Positions 6,401-46,877 of a stretch of 64,000 nucleotides of DNA are shown piece after piece (positions within the stretch are counted from its first letter, which is position 1; every line of letters starts with the position of its first letter). The translations under genes were made by a program, and so were the position numbers. Source of the stretch: Verrucomicrobiales bacterium (GTDB lineage: Bacteria; Verrucomicrobiota; Verrucomicrobiia; Limisphaerales; CANJXF01); contig CANJXF010000001.1 of assembly GCA_947478865.1 (NCBI GenBank), positions 62,001-126,000 on the forward strand, written 5' to 3'. Below the pieces are notes generated by a model. The model saw only the letters and a list, made by a program, of their open reading frames with translations, was not told the DNA's origin and did no database searches.

Positions 6401-7108
6401 TTTCACGTCAGGTTCACCAGCGAAAAGAGTGGCTTTGAAACCGGGCGGCAACGTCATTTTCGTCACGGCATCCTCCGGAGAAAGGCCTTCGTAGAGGACC
6501 TTGTCCGTTTCGGGAATTGCGGCCGCCTTTTTTGGGGTCAACTCGTTTTTGAAATTGGGCCGCTCCGCGTAAAATTTGAAATCATCAAAATTAATGTGAC
6601 CCCAAGGCCCCTTCTGTTCATCCACGACGCGGATAAAAATCTTCCGCCCCATTTCCTTGCCCATCTCGACCACCACCGGACGCATGTTTTCAACCTGCTG
6701 GCCGGATATCTTGTAAAAAACCTTGTCGCGCTTCTCGTCCACCAGCTCCACGCGGACTCCTTCCCCGTCACCGCCACCCACCAGAAAGCTGGCCCAAGGA
6801 TGCGTCACTTTGAACGGGGCTGAAGTCAAGGTGCCACGTAAATCGTCCCCGCTATTTTCGTAAGTGCCGATCCAGAATTCGCCCTGGTGCTCGCTTTTCA
6901 AATCCGCACGGCGTTTAACCACCGTGTCGCCGTGAACCGGTTGCTTCTCGAGCGCCTGGCCCGTGGCAGTCCAATCGTTCAACGTGCCGTCTTCAAAATC
7001 GAGGTTGAGGCGGTGGCCTTTGGCATCGACCGGGGCGATCGGCTGGGCAAGGAGAACGGGCCCGGAGCAAATCAGAAATAAGAACGGGAACGAACGGAAC
7101 ATTTTCAT
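3497..7108 (-). CDS. PVC-type giant cytochrome c / membrane-bound dehydrogenase protein
   Basis: This is a 1203-residue exported protein with a signal peptide (MKMFRSFPFLFLICSGPVLL). Residues about 30-185 form a beta-rich module (LNLDFEDGTLNDWTATGQAL) that may bind carbohydrate. Residues about 200-620 are the PVC membrane-bound dehydrogenase propeller (LPPGFKATLFAGEPDV, HRGRLWVAEAYTYP, TGPDGAVYFIDWYD). HEAT-like helices fill about 640-1040. A C-terminal heme module carries CQQCH at 1074-1078 with VGPDLTGSNRGDLSYIL behind it. Such proteins are abundant in Verrucomicrobia and Planctomycetes and are thought to couple extracytoplasmic sugar oxidation to electron transfer; the substrate is unknown. 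The gene stands alone, with a TATAAT box about 40 bases upstream. Confidence 0.9.
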   Translation of the reverse strand: MKMFRSFPFLFLICSGPVLLAQPIAPVDAKGHRLNLDFEDGTLNDWTATGQALEKQPVHGDTVVKRRADLKSEHQGEFWIGTYENSGDDLRGTLTSAPFKVTHPWASFLVGGGDGEGVRVELVDEKRDKVFYKISGQQVENMRPVVVEMGKEMGRKIFIRVVDEQKGPWGHINFDDFKFYAERPNFKNELTPKKAAAIPETDKVLYEGLSPEDAVTKMTLPPGFKATLFAGEPDVKQPIAFAIDHRGRLWVAEAYTYPKRAPEGEGKDRILVFEDTDGDGKFNKRTVFMEGLNLVSGIELGFGGVYVGAAPYLMFIPIADGDEPKPAGKPEILLDGWDYKRDTHETLNSFKWGPDGWLYGSHGVFCPSLVGKPGAPEKERQWVDAAIWRYHPTKKVFEVFAEGTSNPWGFDFDEHGQLFEEACVIPHLFHMIQGGRYMRQGGEHYTVGADETARNEKSRERNSRKTIFPYFYDDLKTIADHVHYAGDKGPHAGNGRSDSAGGGHAHAGLMVYQGNNWPEEYRGKIFIGNIHGQRINMDIPERKGSGFIGHHGKDPINFNDRWSQVINFQTGPDGAVYFIDWYDKNQCHHNNEAGHDRSNGRIFKISYGDTKFQKVDLQKLSDGELVKLLASKNNWQVRHAQEILQERYGNRDGKDRAQKLSQRNQPAKQLASNINSKSDQLLRLNSYQALGRIDGLVLPFEKRMLSDSDEHIRAWTIQFLCEEKTVSPEILKEFSRLAREDKSPIVRLYLASALQRLPLENRWDILANLYPHSEDASDPNLPLMYWYAAEPLAALDAKRALQIAETTTLPNILNFTVRRVAAIGTADAMAEIVASLKRQSSAERTLNILNGLGISLKGQRSAPMPRGWEEIETKLSENPNAEIRAQMQSLSLTFGSIQALVGLRKTLVNPAAEPSARRTALESLLNFKDKELAPALQSLLNDPALRGQALRGLALYEDSATPAKIITGYNSFNSEEKRDALNTLSSRVTFAKPLLVSVGADQISRKDLSADLVRQLRSLKNDEVNQQLEKVWGAFRESSADKVQQIEKYRKTYRAGGSQSGDASRGRAVFAKTCQQCHTLFDVGGKVGPDLTGSNRGDLSYILQNMVDPNAVIPNEYRASTLETKDDRVITGIVKTQGDNAYLVLTANEAITVPKNEVRSLKQNELSMMPEGLLDALSAQEVRDLIYYLGRPGQVPLAAPVAK

Positions 7109-42260: not shown

Positions 42261-42671
42261 CTACAGCTTTTTAGTCTTCTTCCCAAAGAAACCAAACATA
42301 GGCCGCACTTCCTTTTTGTGCTGCTGCACTTTTAACTGGCCGAGGATCGAGACCCAGCCGATGAAAATCTTGTGCCATTGGTTTTCCAGGCCACGCATGA
42401 CGCCGTCCGCCATTTCGCTGAGGTAACGAATCGACGGCGCACTCGAAATGAGCGCAAGCACCTCTTCCTTGGTCGGGGAGACGCATTCGACACTCGCGAG
42501 AATCAATTCCAATTCCTGCACGAGAACACTTTTCACCTCGAGAAACTGGCTTTCATCCTCGGCGCTGAATTTTTTGGAGCGGGCAAGACTGGTGAAATAA
42601 TTGAACTGCTTGAGGCATTCCAAATAGTTTTCCAGCTGCATGATGATCTGATCAACGTCATGTTTAGGCAT
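42261..42671 (-). CDS. Helical protein of the MglA/roadblock locus
   Basis: From ATG 42671 the product has 136 residues (MPKHDVDQIIMQLENYLECL). It is mainly alpha-helical and amphipathic (FLEVKSVLVQELELILASVE, LSEMADGVMRGLENQWHKIF) and ends in a basic segment (FFGKKTKKL) that could touch membrane or nucleic acid. I do not recognise the family. It lies 7 bases behind the roadblock-like gene and is the last gene of the minus-strand arm of this locus, so a role as adaptor or effector of the GTPase system is an inference from context only. Confidence 0.7.
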   Translation of the reverse strand: MPKHDVDQIIMQLENYLECLKQFNYFTSLARSKKFSAEDESQFLEVKSVLVQELELILASVECVSPTKEEVLALISSAPSIRYLSEMADGVMRGLENQWHKIFIGWVSILGQLKVQQHKKEVRPMFGFFGKKTKKL

Positions 42672-42678
42672 AAAAATA

Positions 42679-42984
42679 TTAGCTGTTGTAGGCCTGTAGA
42701 CCTTTTGGTTTAAGAAAAATGATGGCGCCGCCACGCAATTCGCGTCCGACGATTTTAAGCCCGCCGTAGCGCGCAATGATTTCGAGAAGCGGCAGGCCGG
42801 ATTCCTTCGCGTCCTTGAAAATAGCCAGCACAGCCGAGCTGATTTCCATCATCAGCGGTTCTGGAAAGGAATGCGGAAGCGTAGAGGCCAAAACCCTGCC
42901 GCGACCATCGACGGTAAAACTGCCCGAGGGAAGTTTTACTGTCAGCTTTGGAACTGGCGTTGAGAAAAAGTTCAGGATGCCCAT
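42679..42984 (-). CDS. Small roadblock/LC7-like protein
   Basis: ATG 42984 gives 101 residues. The pattern GSFTVDGRGRVLASTLPHSF, then LMMEISSAVLAIFKDAKESG, LEIIARYGGLKIVGRELRGG and AIIFLKPKG follows the strand-helix-strand of roadblock domains, with the characteristic KIVGRELRGGAIIFL final strands. Such proteins bind MglA-type GTPases, often as dimers acting as GTPase-activating proteins. The start overlaps the end of the response regulator by 13 bases, so they are translated together. Similarity is by eye and moderate. Confidence 0.6.
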   Translation of the reverse strand: MGILNFFSTPVPKLTVKLPSGSFTVDGRGRVLASTLPHSFPEPLMMEISSAVLAIFKDAKESGLPLLEIIARYGGLKIVGRELRGGAIIFLKPKGLQAYNS

Positions 42985-44048
42985 TTTGTTGAAATATTTT
43001 TTAAGGTTTCGTGGAGTTGATCGGCGGTCATCGTTCGTCTGAATCCAACGCATAATTGCGTGTCGCCGCGCGAGGCAATGCCGACATGCCGTTGCAATCC
43101 AAGCCCTTCGATTTGTTTAAGATCGCCGGTTTGTAATTTTTCACCAAGCTCGCGCAAGCGTTTCTGCGTCTGTCTTGTCCAGGCGGCGAGCGGCCCCGCG
43201 TTTTCCAAGCCCCAGGAATCGCAGGCAGCGTCTTCCTTTGCCGGGACGGTCATGACAAATTCAACGCCATCAACACGCGACAGTGCCGCCAAAGGTGAGC
43301 GCGTCAGAAATGTGGTATCGCAAGCAGCCGATTGCACGGAAGCTTCGTTGCCCTTTTTCTCATCGAATGCCTGCGCGAAATCGAGGAGCAATCCCTGGTA
43401 GGAAGTGAAAATAGTGCGAACGCGTTTGGGTTCCGCTGGAAGAATTTCGAAGGTGCCGTTTTTCCAGGATAAAATTTCTTTGAAGGCGGCTTCGCCCACA
43501 AGGTTGATCGTTGCCGCATCGATGACTTCTCCATTGGCCACCCAAATACTCCCGCTCTCTCCCGGCTTGGTCATTTTCAGGACGGAGGAGCTGTGGGACA
43601 AACATTCCAGCTGGATCAGGTCCACCAGACTTTTGCTTTGGATTCCGCGGAAGCCGCCGTCGTCCTGACGGCCGAGCAGCGATTCAATGCAATCGCGAAA
43701 TAGATTCATCTCTTCGTTGGTGCGCGGTTTTTCCCAGAACAAATCAACGCCCATGGCATAAGCGCGCGAGCGATATTGTTCATCGACCACAGCGGTCATG
43801 ACGACGATTCGGATCTGCGGAAATTTTCTACGCACGATGGCAAGAACCTGGAGGCCGTCCATTTTCGGCATGCGCAAATCGGAAATCAGCATCGAGAAGG
43901 GCTCCGACTCAAGCAGCGCAATGGCTCGCGCACCGGAATTGGATGTGTGCACTTCCGGCCTGCTGGGCAACTCCAGCAACAGATCGCGATAGAGATCGAG
44001 CAGATCCTGTTCATCGTCCAAGAGCAAAATTTTCTGTCGTGTGGGCAT
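42972..44048 (-). CDS. Response regulator with DUF4388 (PATAN) and roadblock-like C-terminal domains
   Basis: The product has 358 residues. A receiver domain (1-120) has the DD pair (LLLDDEQDLLDLY), phospho-acceptor D57 (ISDLRMPKMDGL) and the K in FWEKPR. A DUF4388 domain (about 135-235) has GFRGIQSKSLVDLIQLECLS, SGSIWVANGEVIDAATINLV and EAAFKEILSWKNGTFEILPA. The C-terminal part (about 255-358) resembles roadblock (LAALSRVDGVEFVMTVPAKE, RELGEKLQTGDLKQIEGLGL). It has no DNA-binding domain, so it works through proteins, probably linking a histidine kinase to the GTPase module across the divergent promoter. Confidence 0.8.
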   Translation of the reverse strand: MPTRQKILLLDDEQDLLDLYRDLLLELPSRPEVHTSNSGARAIALLESEPFSMLISDLRMPKMDGLQVLAIVRRKFPQIRIVVMTAVVDEQYRSRAYAMGVDLFWEKPRTNEEMNLFRDCIESLLGRQDDGGFRGIQSKSLVDLIQLECLSHSSSVLKMTKPGESGSIWVANGEVIDAATINLVGEAAFKEILSWKNGTFEILPAEPKRVRTIFTSYQGLLLDFAQAFDEKKGNEASVQSAACDTTFLTRSPLAALSRVDGVEFVMTVPAKEDAACDSWGLENAGPLAAWTRQTQKRLRELGEKLQTGDLKQIEGLGLQRHVGIASRGDTQLCVGFRRTMTADQLHETLKNISTKWAS

Positions 44049-44164: not shown

Positions 44165-45775
44165 ATGTTCGCTTCTTTCAAAAAATTGTTTTTTAAGGAC
44201 ACTGCGGAAGTCCTAGCTACTTCCATTCCAGAGCCCGTGGCTTTCACTCCAGCGCCCGATTGGTCGATGGAAAATGACGCCTCTGCCGCAGGGGCGGCGC
44301 CCTCTGAAAAGGCCGCTGTTCATAGCTCCCCGTTTGAAACCGTGGTGGAGGATGATTCCATTGCCCTTCCATTGGATAGCGTCTTTGCTCGGTTGCCCAA
44401 TTCGTTGGCTGGCTTTGTCCAATCTCAGGGCAGCGGCGTTGTTTTGATCCCGGCCCGGAGGATTCTGCAGGAACTGCCGAAAGGATCGGTAAAAGTTTCC
44501 TTTGGCGAACTAAGAGTGGCAGCTCCGCCAGGAACATTTTCAGAAAATGCCGGCCATGACCAGGTTCTCGTCGAACTGCCGCTCAACCAAATCTTAATGC
44601 GAATACCGCCTTCCTTGCTTTCGCGGCGTCCGGATCAGAAAAAAGTCGAGGTGTCTTCAGAGGTAAAAGACATCTTTGGGCAGAACGGAGAAAAACTCTC
44701 CATTTCTACCGCGCCAGCGAGCGTCCCGAAATTTGTTCAACCGGTCGCGCCGCCAACCCTCGTCCCGCCTTCTCGTGCGACAGCCATTCCAATTGCAATA
44801 CCACAAATGGCGAAACCCTCGCCAATCAAAGTCGCGATGCCCAGCCCGGTGCAAACTCCTCCGGCGAGCAAGCCGGTTGTTTTCCGCGTTTTGCCGGATC
44901 AGCTGCCAGACGAAAACGAGAGCAAAGTTTTAATCAGTTTATCGGCGCTTTCCGAAAGTTGGCCGGAAATGGTTAACCGCGAAATCAGCGAAGCGAACCT
45001 AAATGGGGCAAAGGTTGCCTTGCCTATGGACAAACTCGAAGGGGCTCTTCGCACAGGCAAATTGGTTTTTACCTGGAAACAAATCTGCGAATGGATTCAG
45101 CCGCGCGTTAATTATTCTTCTGAGATTGAAGATCTCCCCCTGGATCTGCCGCTGAAAATAATTGCTCCGCTCTTCATGGCCAAGCACCGCACTGATAAGG
45201 TGCAAAAACAAATTTTCGTCGGTGATGTGCCCGACTTATTTGCAGGAAGAAAGCCTAGAATCGATTCGGTAAAGCCGGCCATGGCCGCTCCCGCGCCAAC
45301 CGCAATTCCGTTGAATCCGAGTATGCCGCCGCTGGTCATGGCGGAGGCCGCGCAACCCGCGCCGCTGGCTCGGGTGGAGCCACAGGCTACTGCGGCCGAA
45401 AACGCTTCAGCCAAAGCCACCCGAAGCGATTTATCCCCACAAGCGGTCGTGAAGAATCTCGTTTCACATCCGGAAATCGCCGGCGCCTTCATTGCCATGC
45501 AGGATGGTTTGCTGGTGGCAGCTGAGCTGCCGGAGCATTTAAAGCCGGATACCTTCGCCGCCTTTCTTCCGCAAATTTTTGGCCGCATGAATCAGTACAC
45601 CAAAGAACTTCAACTCGGGGCGGTCTCCAGCCTCACCTTCGTGGTTGAAAATGTCACATGGCAAATCGTCAAGAGCGGGACGGTTTATCTGGTCGCACTT
45701 GGAAAACCCGGCGAGAGCTTGCCGGGTTCGAAACTCAACACCCTCGCGGCACAGCTAAGCCGCCAAATCAGTTAG
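44165..45775 (+). CDS. Large repeat protein with C-terminal roadblock domain
   Basis: The product has 536 residues and no signal peptide. It carries three or four related modules of the form LPLxxIxxxLPxxL. They are IALPLDSVFARLPNSLAGFV (about 60), VELPLNQILMRIPPSLLSRR (about 135), VALPMDKLEGALRTGKLVFT (about 285) and LPLDLPLKIIAPLFMAKHRT (about 325). Ala/Pro-rich linkers lie between. Residues 425-536 form a roadblock domain (VKNLVSHPEIAGAFIAMQDG, QLGAVSSLTFVVENVTWQIV). It ends 9 bases before the MglA gene. It probably serves as a GTPase-binding scaffold. I do not recognise the repeats as a named domain. Confidence 0.72.
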   Translation: MFASFKKLFFKDTAEVLATSIPEPVAFTPAPDWSMENDASAAGAAPSEKAAVHSSPFETVVEDDSIALPLDSVFARLPNSLAGFVQSQGSGVVLIPARRILQELPKGSVKVSFGELRVAAPPGTFSENAGHDQVLVELPLNQILMRIPPSLLSRRPDQKKVEVSSEVKDIFGQNGEKLSISTAPASVPKFVQPVAPPTLVPPSRATAIPIAIPQMAKPSPIKVAMPSPVQTPPASKPVVFRVLPDQLPDENESKVLISLSALSESWPEMVNREISEANLNGAKVALPMDKLEGALRTGKLVFTWKQICEWIQPRVNYSSEIEDLPLDLPLKIIAPLFMAKHRTDKVQKQIFVGDVPDLFAGRKPRIDSVKPAMAAPAPTAIPLNPSMPPLVMAEAAQPAPLARVEPQATAAENASAKATRSDLSPQAVVKNLVSHPEIAGAFIAMQDGLLVAAELPEHLKPDTFAAFLPQIFGRMNQYTKELQLGAVSSLTFVVENVTWQIVKSGTVYLVALGKPGESLPGSKLNTLAAQLSRQIS

Positions 45776-45784
45776 GAAAACATT

Positions 45785-46396
45785 ATGGCAATCATCAATC
45801 AGGCAACAAAAGAACTACAGGTTAAGATCGTTTATTACGGCCCCGGCAAAGGCGGCAAAACCACCAACCTCGAACAGGTGCACAGCAATGTGCAGGATGT
45901 TCAGGAAAAAGGGAAACTGGTCTCGCTCGCAACGAGTTCGGACCGCACGCTCTTTTTCGATTTTCTGCCCATCGAGGCGATGTCGATCAAGGGATTCAAG
46001 ACCAAGTTCCAGCTCTACACGGTGCCGGGACAGGTCATCTACAACACCACGCGCCAACTGGTCTTGCGCGGCGTGGACGGCATTGTGTTTGTCGCCGATT
46101 CGCAATACGACAAGATGGCCGAGAACGTGGAAAGCTTTTCGAATCTCGAGGAGAATTTGAAAGCGCTGAAGCTGAATCTGGGCGATATCCCTTACGTGCT
46201 GCAATATAACAAGCGGGATTTACCGAATGTCGCGCCCGTTGAATACATGGAGTTCCTGTTGAACAATCGCGATGTGCAAGTGCCCTCGTTCTCAGCTTCA
46301 GCCACGAAATGCGAAGGCGTTTTCGATTCGCTGAACATGATCACGCGCCTGTTGCTCAACAAATTCATCAACGAAGGAAATCGCAAGGTGGCTTGA
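45785..46396 (+). CDS. mglA: MglA-type Ras-like GTPase
   Basis: The product has 203 residues. P-loop VYYGPGKGGKTTNLEQVHS (residues 19-27), LYTVPGQVIYNTTRQLVLRG (MglA-type TVPGQ, a G3 variant of DxxG), and G4 YNKRDLPN are seen, with SASATKCEGVFD near G5. MglA-family proteins set cell polarity and drive gliding or pilus placement in Myxococcus and relatives, controlled by roadblock MglB proteins. Both a downstream roadblock gene and upstream roadblock fusions are adjacent, so the module should be self-contained. The pilus operon in this window is a possible client. Confidence 0.93.
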   Translation: MAIINQATKELQVKIVYYGPGKGGKTTNLEQVHSNVQDVQEKGKLVSLATSSDRTLFFDFLPIEAMSIKGFKTKFQLYTVPGQVIYNTTRQLVLRGVDGIVFVADSQYDKMAENVESFSNLEENLKALKLNLGDIPYVLQYNKRDLPNVAPVEYMEFLLNNRDVQVPSFSASATKCEGVFDSLNMITRLLLNKFINEGNRKVA

Positions 46397-46397
46397 T

Positions 46398-46877
46398 ATG
46401 TTAAGCCTCCCCCCATTGATCGAGGAGGATATCCAGTGCATGGAAAATGCATTGGACGACTTGCTGCAAAGGAGCGAGTCATTGGGTGCGCTGCTGATCG
46501 ACAAAGGCGGCCCACTAATCACCCAGCGAGGGAAACTCGCCGGATTCGACACGACCACGATGTCAGCCCTCGCGGCCGGATCATTCGCCGCGACCGAAGC
46601 GATCGCGGGATTGGTGGGCGAATCGAATTTCAGCAGCATCTATCAACAAGGCGAGCACCACAGCGTCCTTGTGGGCAATGTTGGCGAGAATTTGCTGCTG
46701 ATCGTAATTTTCAAGGCCTCACTCAGCGTGGGCGTCGTGAAATATTATGCCGCGAATACGGTTCAGGTCGTTGCCGCGCAACTTGAGCAAGCCCGCGCCC
46801 GGACGCCTGATTCCAGCTTGGATTTGGTTTCCCTGAACATGACGGACACATCAGAGTTATTTAAGAAAAAAGCATAG
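46398..46877 (+). CDS. Roadblock/LC7 (MglB-like) protein
   Basis: The product has 159 residues. The roadblock core is seen as LDDLLQRSESLGALLIDKGG, TQRGKLAGFDTTTMSALAAG, ATEAIAGLVGESNFSSIYQQ and LLLIVIFKASLSVGVVKYYA. It lacks membrane segments. It begins one base after the mglA stop, the usual position of the GTPase-activating partner. The C-terminal helix pair (VVAAQLEQARARTPDS) probably mediates dimerisation. Confidence 0.88.
   Translation: MLSLPPLIEEDIQCMENALDDLLQRSESLGALLIDKGGPLITQRGKLAGFDTTTMSALAAGSFAATEAIAGLVGESNFSSIYQQGEHHSVLVGNVGENLLLIVIFKASLSVGVVKYYAANTVQVVAAQLEQARARTPDSSLDLVSLNMTDTSELFKKKA

Follow-up and report, generated by a model that had tools for sequence, protein, structure and literature searches.

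The window, i.e., the whole stretch of 64,000 nucleotides analysed here, contains on its forward strand a gene for a 536-residue protein in which two copies of a folded module are followed by a roadblock domain (Table 1). The genes for this protein, which for brevity is called the adapter in the following, for an MglA-type GTPase and for an MglB-like protein form one apparent operon, which lies opposite to the gene of a receiver-PATAN protein and to two further conserved genes.

Table 1. Features of the locus, with positions in the window and, in the last column, the basis of each assignment or its occurrence among the loci compared.
Feature	Positions	Strand	Basis or occurrence
Module-module-roadblock protein gene, 536 aa	44165..45775	+	ORF; relatives in 57/97 same-order genomes
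N-terminal basic amphipathic stretch, residues 1-13, MFASFKKLFFKDT	44165..44203	+	Hydrophobic moment and charge; putative anchor role
Module copy 1, residues 64-173	44354..44683	+	HMM match; pLDDT mostly >90 over 64-153; homologous to copy 2
Module 1 beta-alpha unit 1, residues 65-83	44357..44413	+	AlphaFold2 model and unit profile scores
Module 1 beta-alpha unit 2, residues 92-107	44438..44485	+	AlphaFold2 model and unit profile scores
Module 1 beta-alpha unit 3, residues 108-123	44486..44533	+	AlphaFold2 model and unit profile scores
Module 1 beta-alpha unit 4, residues 134-153	44564..44623	+	AlphaFold2 model and unit profile scores
Disordered linker, Ala/Pro-rich, residues 186-250	44720..44914	+	pLDDT about 45-50
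Module copy 2, residues 254-361	44924..45247	+	HMM match; pLDDT mostly >90 over 251-343
Disordered linker, Ala/Pro-rich, residues 363-419	45251..45421	+	pLDDT about 42-49
Roadblock domain, residues 420-536	45422..45772	+	Pfam, AlphaFold2, Foldseek, VIA
MglA-type small GTPase	45785..46396	+	M. xanthus MglA 6h17 as top PDB sequence match, E 6e-63; DRT motif
MglB-like roadblock protein	46398..46877	+	Pfam Robl_LC7 E 1e-8; M. xanthus MglB 6izw E 1e-14
Divergent response-regulator receiver + DUF4388 (PATAN) gene	42972..44048	-	Pfam; divergent neighbour in 88/98 loci
Conserved 124-aa partner, no Pfam family	42679..43053	-	Present in 75/90 loci
Conserved partner, 171-aa ORF	42261..42776	-	Weak sub-cut-off Pfam matches; present in 76/85 loci

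This arrangement is kept among the relatives. Over 112 distinct merged loci (L136 excluded), where for each count only the loci with enough flank were taken, the script finds the MglA-type GTPase directly next to the adapter in 102 of 104, with the two misses (L064 and L117) being ORFs called from a start far upstream, and the MglB-like gene is present in 98 of 98; the receiver-PATAN, 124-aa and 171-aa genes occur at the frequencies given in Table 1, and UppP in 30 of 49 loci. In L136 the adapter and the GTPase appear fused, but at 6770-6771 two N replace the end of the one gene and the start of the other, and because the joint is an assembly gap the fusion was dropped as evidence of contact. 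The cluster is also carried by a locus titled Akkermansia muciniphila (L151), a label that may be wrong since its adapter begins almost exactly as that of L134 (Verrucomicrobia bacterium Pedos-510) does. Locus L147 is that of a cultured species, Chthoniobacter flavus Ellin428, whose adapter has both modules.

When aligned to 6h17, the GTPase carries the TVPGQ motif and an Arg adjoining the Thr of G2, and among 76 ORFs picked by the P-loop pattern 75 have DRT before LFFDF. In the sections available of PMC4316618, an Arg beside the G2 Thr is the mark of MglA Group 1, PATAN genes near mglA and mglB are already noted, and Verrucomicrobia appear under MglA Group 5 only, whereas the GTPase at 45785-46396 and its relatives have the Group 1 DRT. 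The MglB-like protein scores 35.2 bits against Robl_LC7 (cut-off 23) and 72 bits against the NCBIfam MglB equivalog (cut-off 200).

The adapter itself was predicted by AlphaFold2 from 49 sequences, giving a mean pLDDT of 73.5. The 266 residues that reach at least 90 lie mostly in 64-153, 251-343 and 420-536, and values elsewhere, including the Ala/Pro linkers at residues about 14-60, 186-250 and 363-419, are mostly low. The first 13 residues are modelled as a low-confidence helix, and over 80 relatives the N-terminus has a mean hydrophobic moment of 0.46, versus 0.30 when shuffled, and a mean net charge of +2.65. At the other end of the chain, the roadblock fold that the sequence-only reading had proposed is borne out, with pLDDT mostly above 90 over 420-536 and with Foldseek and VIA in agreement. 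Foldseek gives 9jue as the best match (E 2.9e-8) and MglB 6izw at E 4.1e-7, while VIA superposes the domain on 9jue_A with Z 17.9 and rmsd 1.9 and on MglB 6hjm_K with Z 16.5 and rmsd 2.1, each over 115 residues. By sequence the domain matches Pfam Robl_LC7 at E 1.3e-4 and 22.1 bits, just below the 23-bit cut-off; among 49 relatives, 45 reach E <= 0.01 with this family. The profiles of the adapter roadblock domain and of MglB show no sequence match to each other (hhalign 0.4%), so that the direct pairing with the MglB-like protein that is proposed below rests on the fold and the neighbourhood. Two further hhalign results with the roadblock domain, 12.9% for the 124-aa protein and 48% for the C-terminus of the receiver-PATAN protein, are not claimed as roadblock domains.

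We now consider the repeat that precedes the roadblock domain. It had been read from the sequence as four segments sharing a V/I-x-LP pattern, near residues 60, 135, 285 and 325, which were taken as repeats joined by linkers. The pattern is indeed present at all four places, with one more at residue 93 having been missed: [VIL]x[LI]P[LIVMA]xx[IVL] is found five times, at residues 66, 93, 136, 284 and 326. Since none of 2000 shuffles of the protein reaches five occurrences (mean 0.18), the pattern exceeds chance, and its strict form, LPLxxIxxxLPxxL, which had also been named, occurs twice only, at 68 and 138. The repeat is therefore real, but four equivalent repeats as first placed are rejected by profile comparison, which gives a unit of ~110 residues in two copies, each of them a folded module; the four named segments are a mixed subset of the beta-alpha units of these modules.

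In this comparison, made with a 38-sequence alignment, residues ~64-182 match residues 253-362 with an hhalign probability of 98.86% and a score of 93.4 over 104 columns, while the score does not exceed 16.1 in 60 column shuffles, is 13.0 with the reversed profile and stays within 28.1 for the 27 other pairings of eight profiles made from this gene cluster. Within the 536-residue protein the HMM of copy 1 detects copy 2 at 17 bits, and that of copy 2 detects copy 1 at 23 bits. The module-module-roadblock order is found in 102 of 115 distinct sequences and a third module between copy 1 and the roadblock domain in five, the remaining eight, which are without a domain, being cut or broken ORFs. 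Overall sequence conservation in the alignment of relatives is low (mean column identity 26%). In the phylum-wide A6 profile, the module is nearly invariant at a few positions: the Pro that follows the first helix, Leu and Gly in 'LxxG', one Leu in the last 'LPL', and a final Phe after the last helix.

Structure prediction, which had been put forward as the check on the repeat, gives repeated folds, with both copies folded alike by AlphaFold2. The elements of copy 1 are E65-69, H70-75, H79-82, E92-96, H97-106, E109-112, H113-119, E135-138 and H140-146, and those of copy 2 are E254-258, H259-263, H268-276, E283-287, H288-297, E301-303, H304-309, E325-327 and H330-343, i.e., nine elements in identical order with an offset of ~190 residues. 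Each module is predicted to consist of four short beta-alpha (strand-helix) units, and when the units are compared with one another, all six pairs outscore all 60 column shuffles and all 144 control windows of 18 columns drawn from the cluster's other proteins or domains. The three pairs that involve unit 4 score 14.8 to 21.5, with the top control at 14.5, and the weakest pair, 2-3, scores 12.2, with controls for units 2 and 3 of at most 11.6. These scores support, but do not prove, that the four units arose by duplication. The 124-aa partner (42679-43053) contains SGLPLLEIIARYGGLKIVGRELRG, which resembles the beta-alpha units, and for three of the four units windows of this protein lead the 144 controls, though weakly. 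As a relative of the module, it was rejected: SGLPLLEIIARY is the top control window for units 1 and 4 (12.7 and 14.5) and the profile reaches 11% with copy 2, both of which are too weak.

The remark, made from the sequence, that no named domain was known to have such a repeat agrees with Pfam, where no family is over cut-off for either module and only scattered weak matches are seen, in one or two of 19 members per copy. No PDB sequence is matched at E <= 1 by the profiles of copy 1, of copy 2 or phylum-wide. For a model of copy 2 by itself (pLDDT 75), Foldseek gives no match in the PDB (best E 4.0), VIA gives no Z >= 2 among 81 chains, and a fold search of the viral models in BFVD gives no match (best E 0.6). 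The module thus seems to represent a new domain family in which an internal repeat is clear, and from these fold searches, which took copy 2 and covered the PDB and viral models, it is possible that its predicted fold is new as well.

As regards the distribution, an initial scan with the single protein as query gave no match, and in the same order relatives were found in 56 of 97 genomes with the single protein and in 57 with the alignment. Named records exist for 72 loci from the GTDB contigs, 48 of which were used in alignment A3; the titles of 68 are Verrucomicrobia or subgroups of it and those of four are 'bacterium' only. The GTPase is present in 55 of the 97 genomes, all 55 of which are among the 57 with the module protein (Fisher 3e-25, relatedness not corrected), and in the two with the module but without the GTPase (G027 and G035) the adapter ORF reaches the contig end. 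Across the phylum, 44 of 387 sampled genomes have the module and 39 the GTPase, with 39 of 39 GTPase genomes within the 44 (Fisher 1.9e-48, again with relatedness not corrected). Note that these genome counts are lower bounds, as among the 387 genomes A5 finds 5, A4 22 and A6 44, and that the A6 profile was built partly from loci of these genomes, the 22 of the 44 that were newly found having been unused in building it; the GTPase is present in 18 of these 22.

Outside the order, relatives have one to three module copies, mostly with a roadblock domain, and 11 of 20 have one detected module. The GTPase lies within the fetched stretch in 28 of 40 loci outside the order, and in several genomes of family f101 (e.g., G307 and G290) the module and the GTPase are distant or on separate contigs; in G307, for instance, the module lies at C2:185,070 but the GTPase at C2:1,877,867. 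Since the distant genes in f101 still co-occur, the bond between the module and the GTPase is not merely one of neighbourhood. A link to type IV pili was also considered via PilT and is uninformative because every genome of the order (97 of 97) has PilT.

An important point for the interpretation is that the module can exist without the switch. Five of the 44 module genomes in the 387-genome sample are without the GTPase, and four of them (G103, G116, G149 and G310, of family f86 and 96-98% complete) keep the module as a stand-alone domain in a single-module protein, with no GTPase found at E <= 0.001 and no Robl_LC7 at E <= 0.1. Three of the stand-alone proteins have 162, 149 and 155 residues, and the fourth is an ORF of 328 residues whose called start is probably too early. 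The f86 members with the GTPase (G247, G341 and G445) have the module plus the roadblock domain, and the stand-alone protein of L206 is 35-42% identical to these f86 module-roadblock proteins. The fifth genome, G439, which is 89% complete, has a module-roadblock protein. Each of the four stand-alone loci (L205-L208) has a GDSL-lipase ORF immediately downstream, and three have a TauE-type gene. The stand-alone state in f86 follows the loss of both the GTPase and all detected roadblock proteins, possibly in one event. Because these four genomes retain the module, it has another use than with the switch, at least there, and because the roadblock domain is missing from these four along with the switch, it goes with the switch. 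It could also be that the stand-alone domain has been repurposed in f86.

Based on these data, we consider it somewhat probable that the protein is a phylum-specific adapter which couples the MglA-type switch of Verrucomicrobiota to a target. The four genomes with the stand-alone module but with neither switch nor roadblock suggest that the roadblock part probably joins the switch and the modules bind something else. In such a mechanism, the roadblock domain would be the switch-side contact, pairing with or beside the MglB-like dimer and hence with MglA, much as MglC pairs with MglB in Myxococcus. The modules would extend on the flexible linkers and hold a target whose existence does not depend on the GTPase. 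Through its basic amphipathic N-terminus, the chain may be anchored to a membrane or a polar structure, and the GTP state together with the receiver-PATAN partner would set where the module-bound target is held. Which domain contacts which partner cannot be told from co-occurrence or synteny.

Some relatives outside the order carry additional domains. In L165 (3254-5920) and L195 (3989-7708), a ComEA-like helix-hairpin-helix lies between the modules and the roadblock domain (HHH_3, E 1.4e-17 and 1.7e-14), with weak matches also in L194 and L199. The receiver-PATAN protein beside the adapter in L188 (2943-4766) has an N-terminal MshEN domain (24.4 bits, cut-off 23.1), and that of L203 (2707-4380) has an MshEN match below the cut-off. 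MshEN is a domain of type IV pilus and secretion ATPases. We take the helix-hairpin-helix and MshEN domains as leads to the target of the adapter.

By contrast, the sequence-only reading took the protein as a multivalent scaffold, in which each repeated module binds GTPases or roadblock dimers and so clusters the switch. What is found is indeed a repeat without a Pfam name that is joined to a roadblock domain and encoded in a GTPase operon, and both the near-perfect co-occurrence with the GTPase and the module copy number varying from one to three would fit with such a scaffold. The binding of several GTPase or roadblock copies is, however, weakened by the four genomes that have the module protein without the GTPase or a detected Robl_LC7, and the single detected module in more than half of the relatives outside the order implies that multiple copies are unnecessary. 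We therefore regard the scaffold as unlikely, and it is mainly for the stand-alone modules in f86 that the adapter is preferred. Quite unlikely, too, is that the protein regulates the GTPase cycle as a co-GAP or exchange factor whose modules act on MglA in the manner of RomX or RomY and are placed by the roadblock domain. The apparent operon with the MglA and MglB-like genes is consistent with such a role, and according to PMC9481161, RomX provides the GEF function in RomR/RomX, while RomY stimulates the GAP activity of MglB; but the likeness to RomX and RomY is drawn from published description, the module is kept without the GTPase in the four genomes, and its few near-fixed positions, mostly Pro, Gly, Leu and the final Phe, include no obvious catalytic residue. 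That the modules are expandable spacers or remnants, the roadblock domain alone mattering, would accord with the low overall conservation but is very improbable, given that the modules fold with high confidence, have near-invariant positions across the phylum and survive as a stand-alone protein.

Returning to the adapter, we tentatively put forward a further possibility, namely that the module has a fold unseen in the PDB, derived from fourfold duplication of a beta-alpha unit of ~17 residues, and defines a Verrucomicrobiota-wide class of MglA adapters. It would then be a newly arisen binding domain, present in varying copies and tethered to a roadblock domain, with the switch lost in one family, where the domain stands alone. 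In the literature found, including the available sections of PMC4316618, PMC11580455, PMC9481161, PMC7949163, PMC12719032 and PMC5696360, there is no account of a module-module-roadblock companion of MglA, and those same sources give no role for MglA switches in Verrucomicrobiota, a large and little-studied phylum. The MglA/roadblock system is of a known kind, and the adapter and its module appear to be new. As a companion in 39 of 39 GTPase genomes among the 387 sampled, the adapter offers a natural handle on the role of MglA in this phylum. Moreover, the module genomes without the switch are a natural experiment, as whatever the module binds in them may be what the switch targets elsewhere.

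Finally, we compare the adapter with known systems. MglA switches govern cell polarity and motility in Myxococcus. With the MglA/MglB polarity switch of Myxococcus and Thermus, the present system shares an MglA-type GTPase of the DRT group that is encoded together with an MglB-like partner in an apparent operon, and it differs in having a constant extra companion, the module-module-roadblock protein. MglC resembles the adapter as a second, sequence-divergent roadblock domain beside MglB, but it is not known to have N-terminal modules or long linkers. RomR, to which the adapter is similar in its role as a connector, combines a receiver domain with a C-terminal helix, whereas here the receiver is on the separate PATAN protein and the adapter chain ends in the roadblock domain. 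In the sections available of the respective papers, MglC is the second roadblock protein that binds MglB in Myxococcus (PMC7949163), RomR is a binding partner of MglC and also of the MglB-MglC complex (PMC12719032), and Ragulator p18/LAMTOR1 is a membrane-anchored scaffold that organises roadblock proteins and small GTPases (PMC5696360). Like p18, the adapter, with its putative anchor, would be a membrane-tied organiser of roadblock proteins; p18, however, wraps separate roadblock proteins, while the adapter has the roadblock domain within its own chain, preceded by folded modules.
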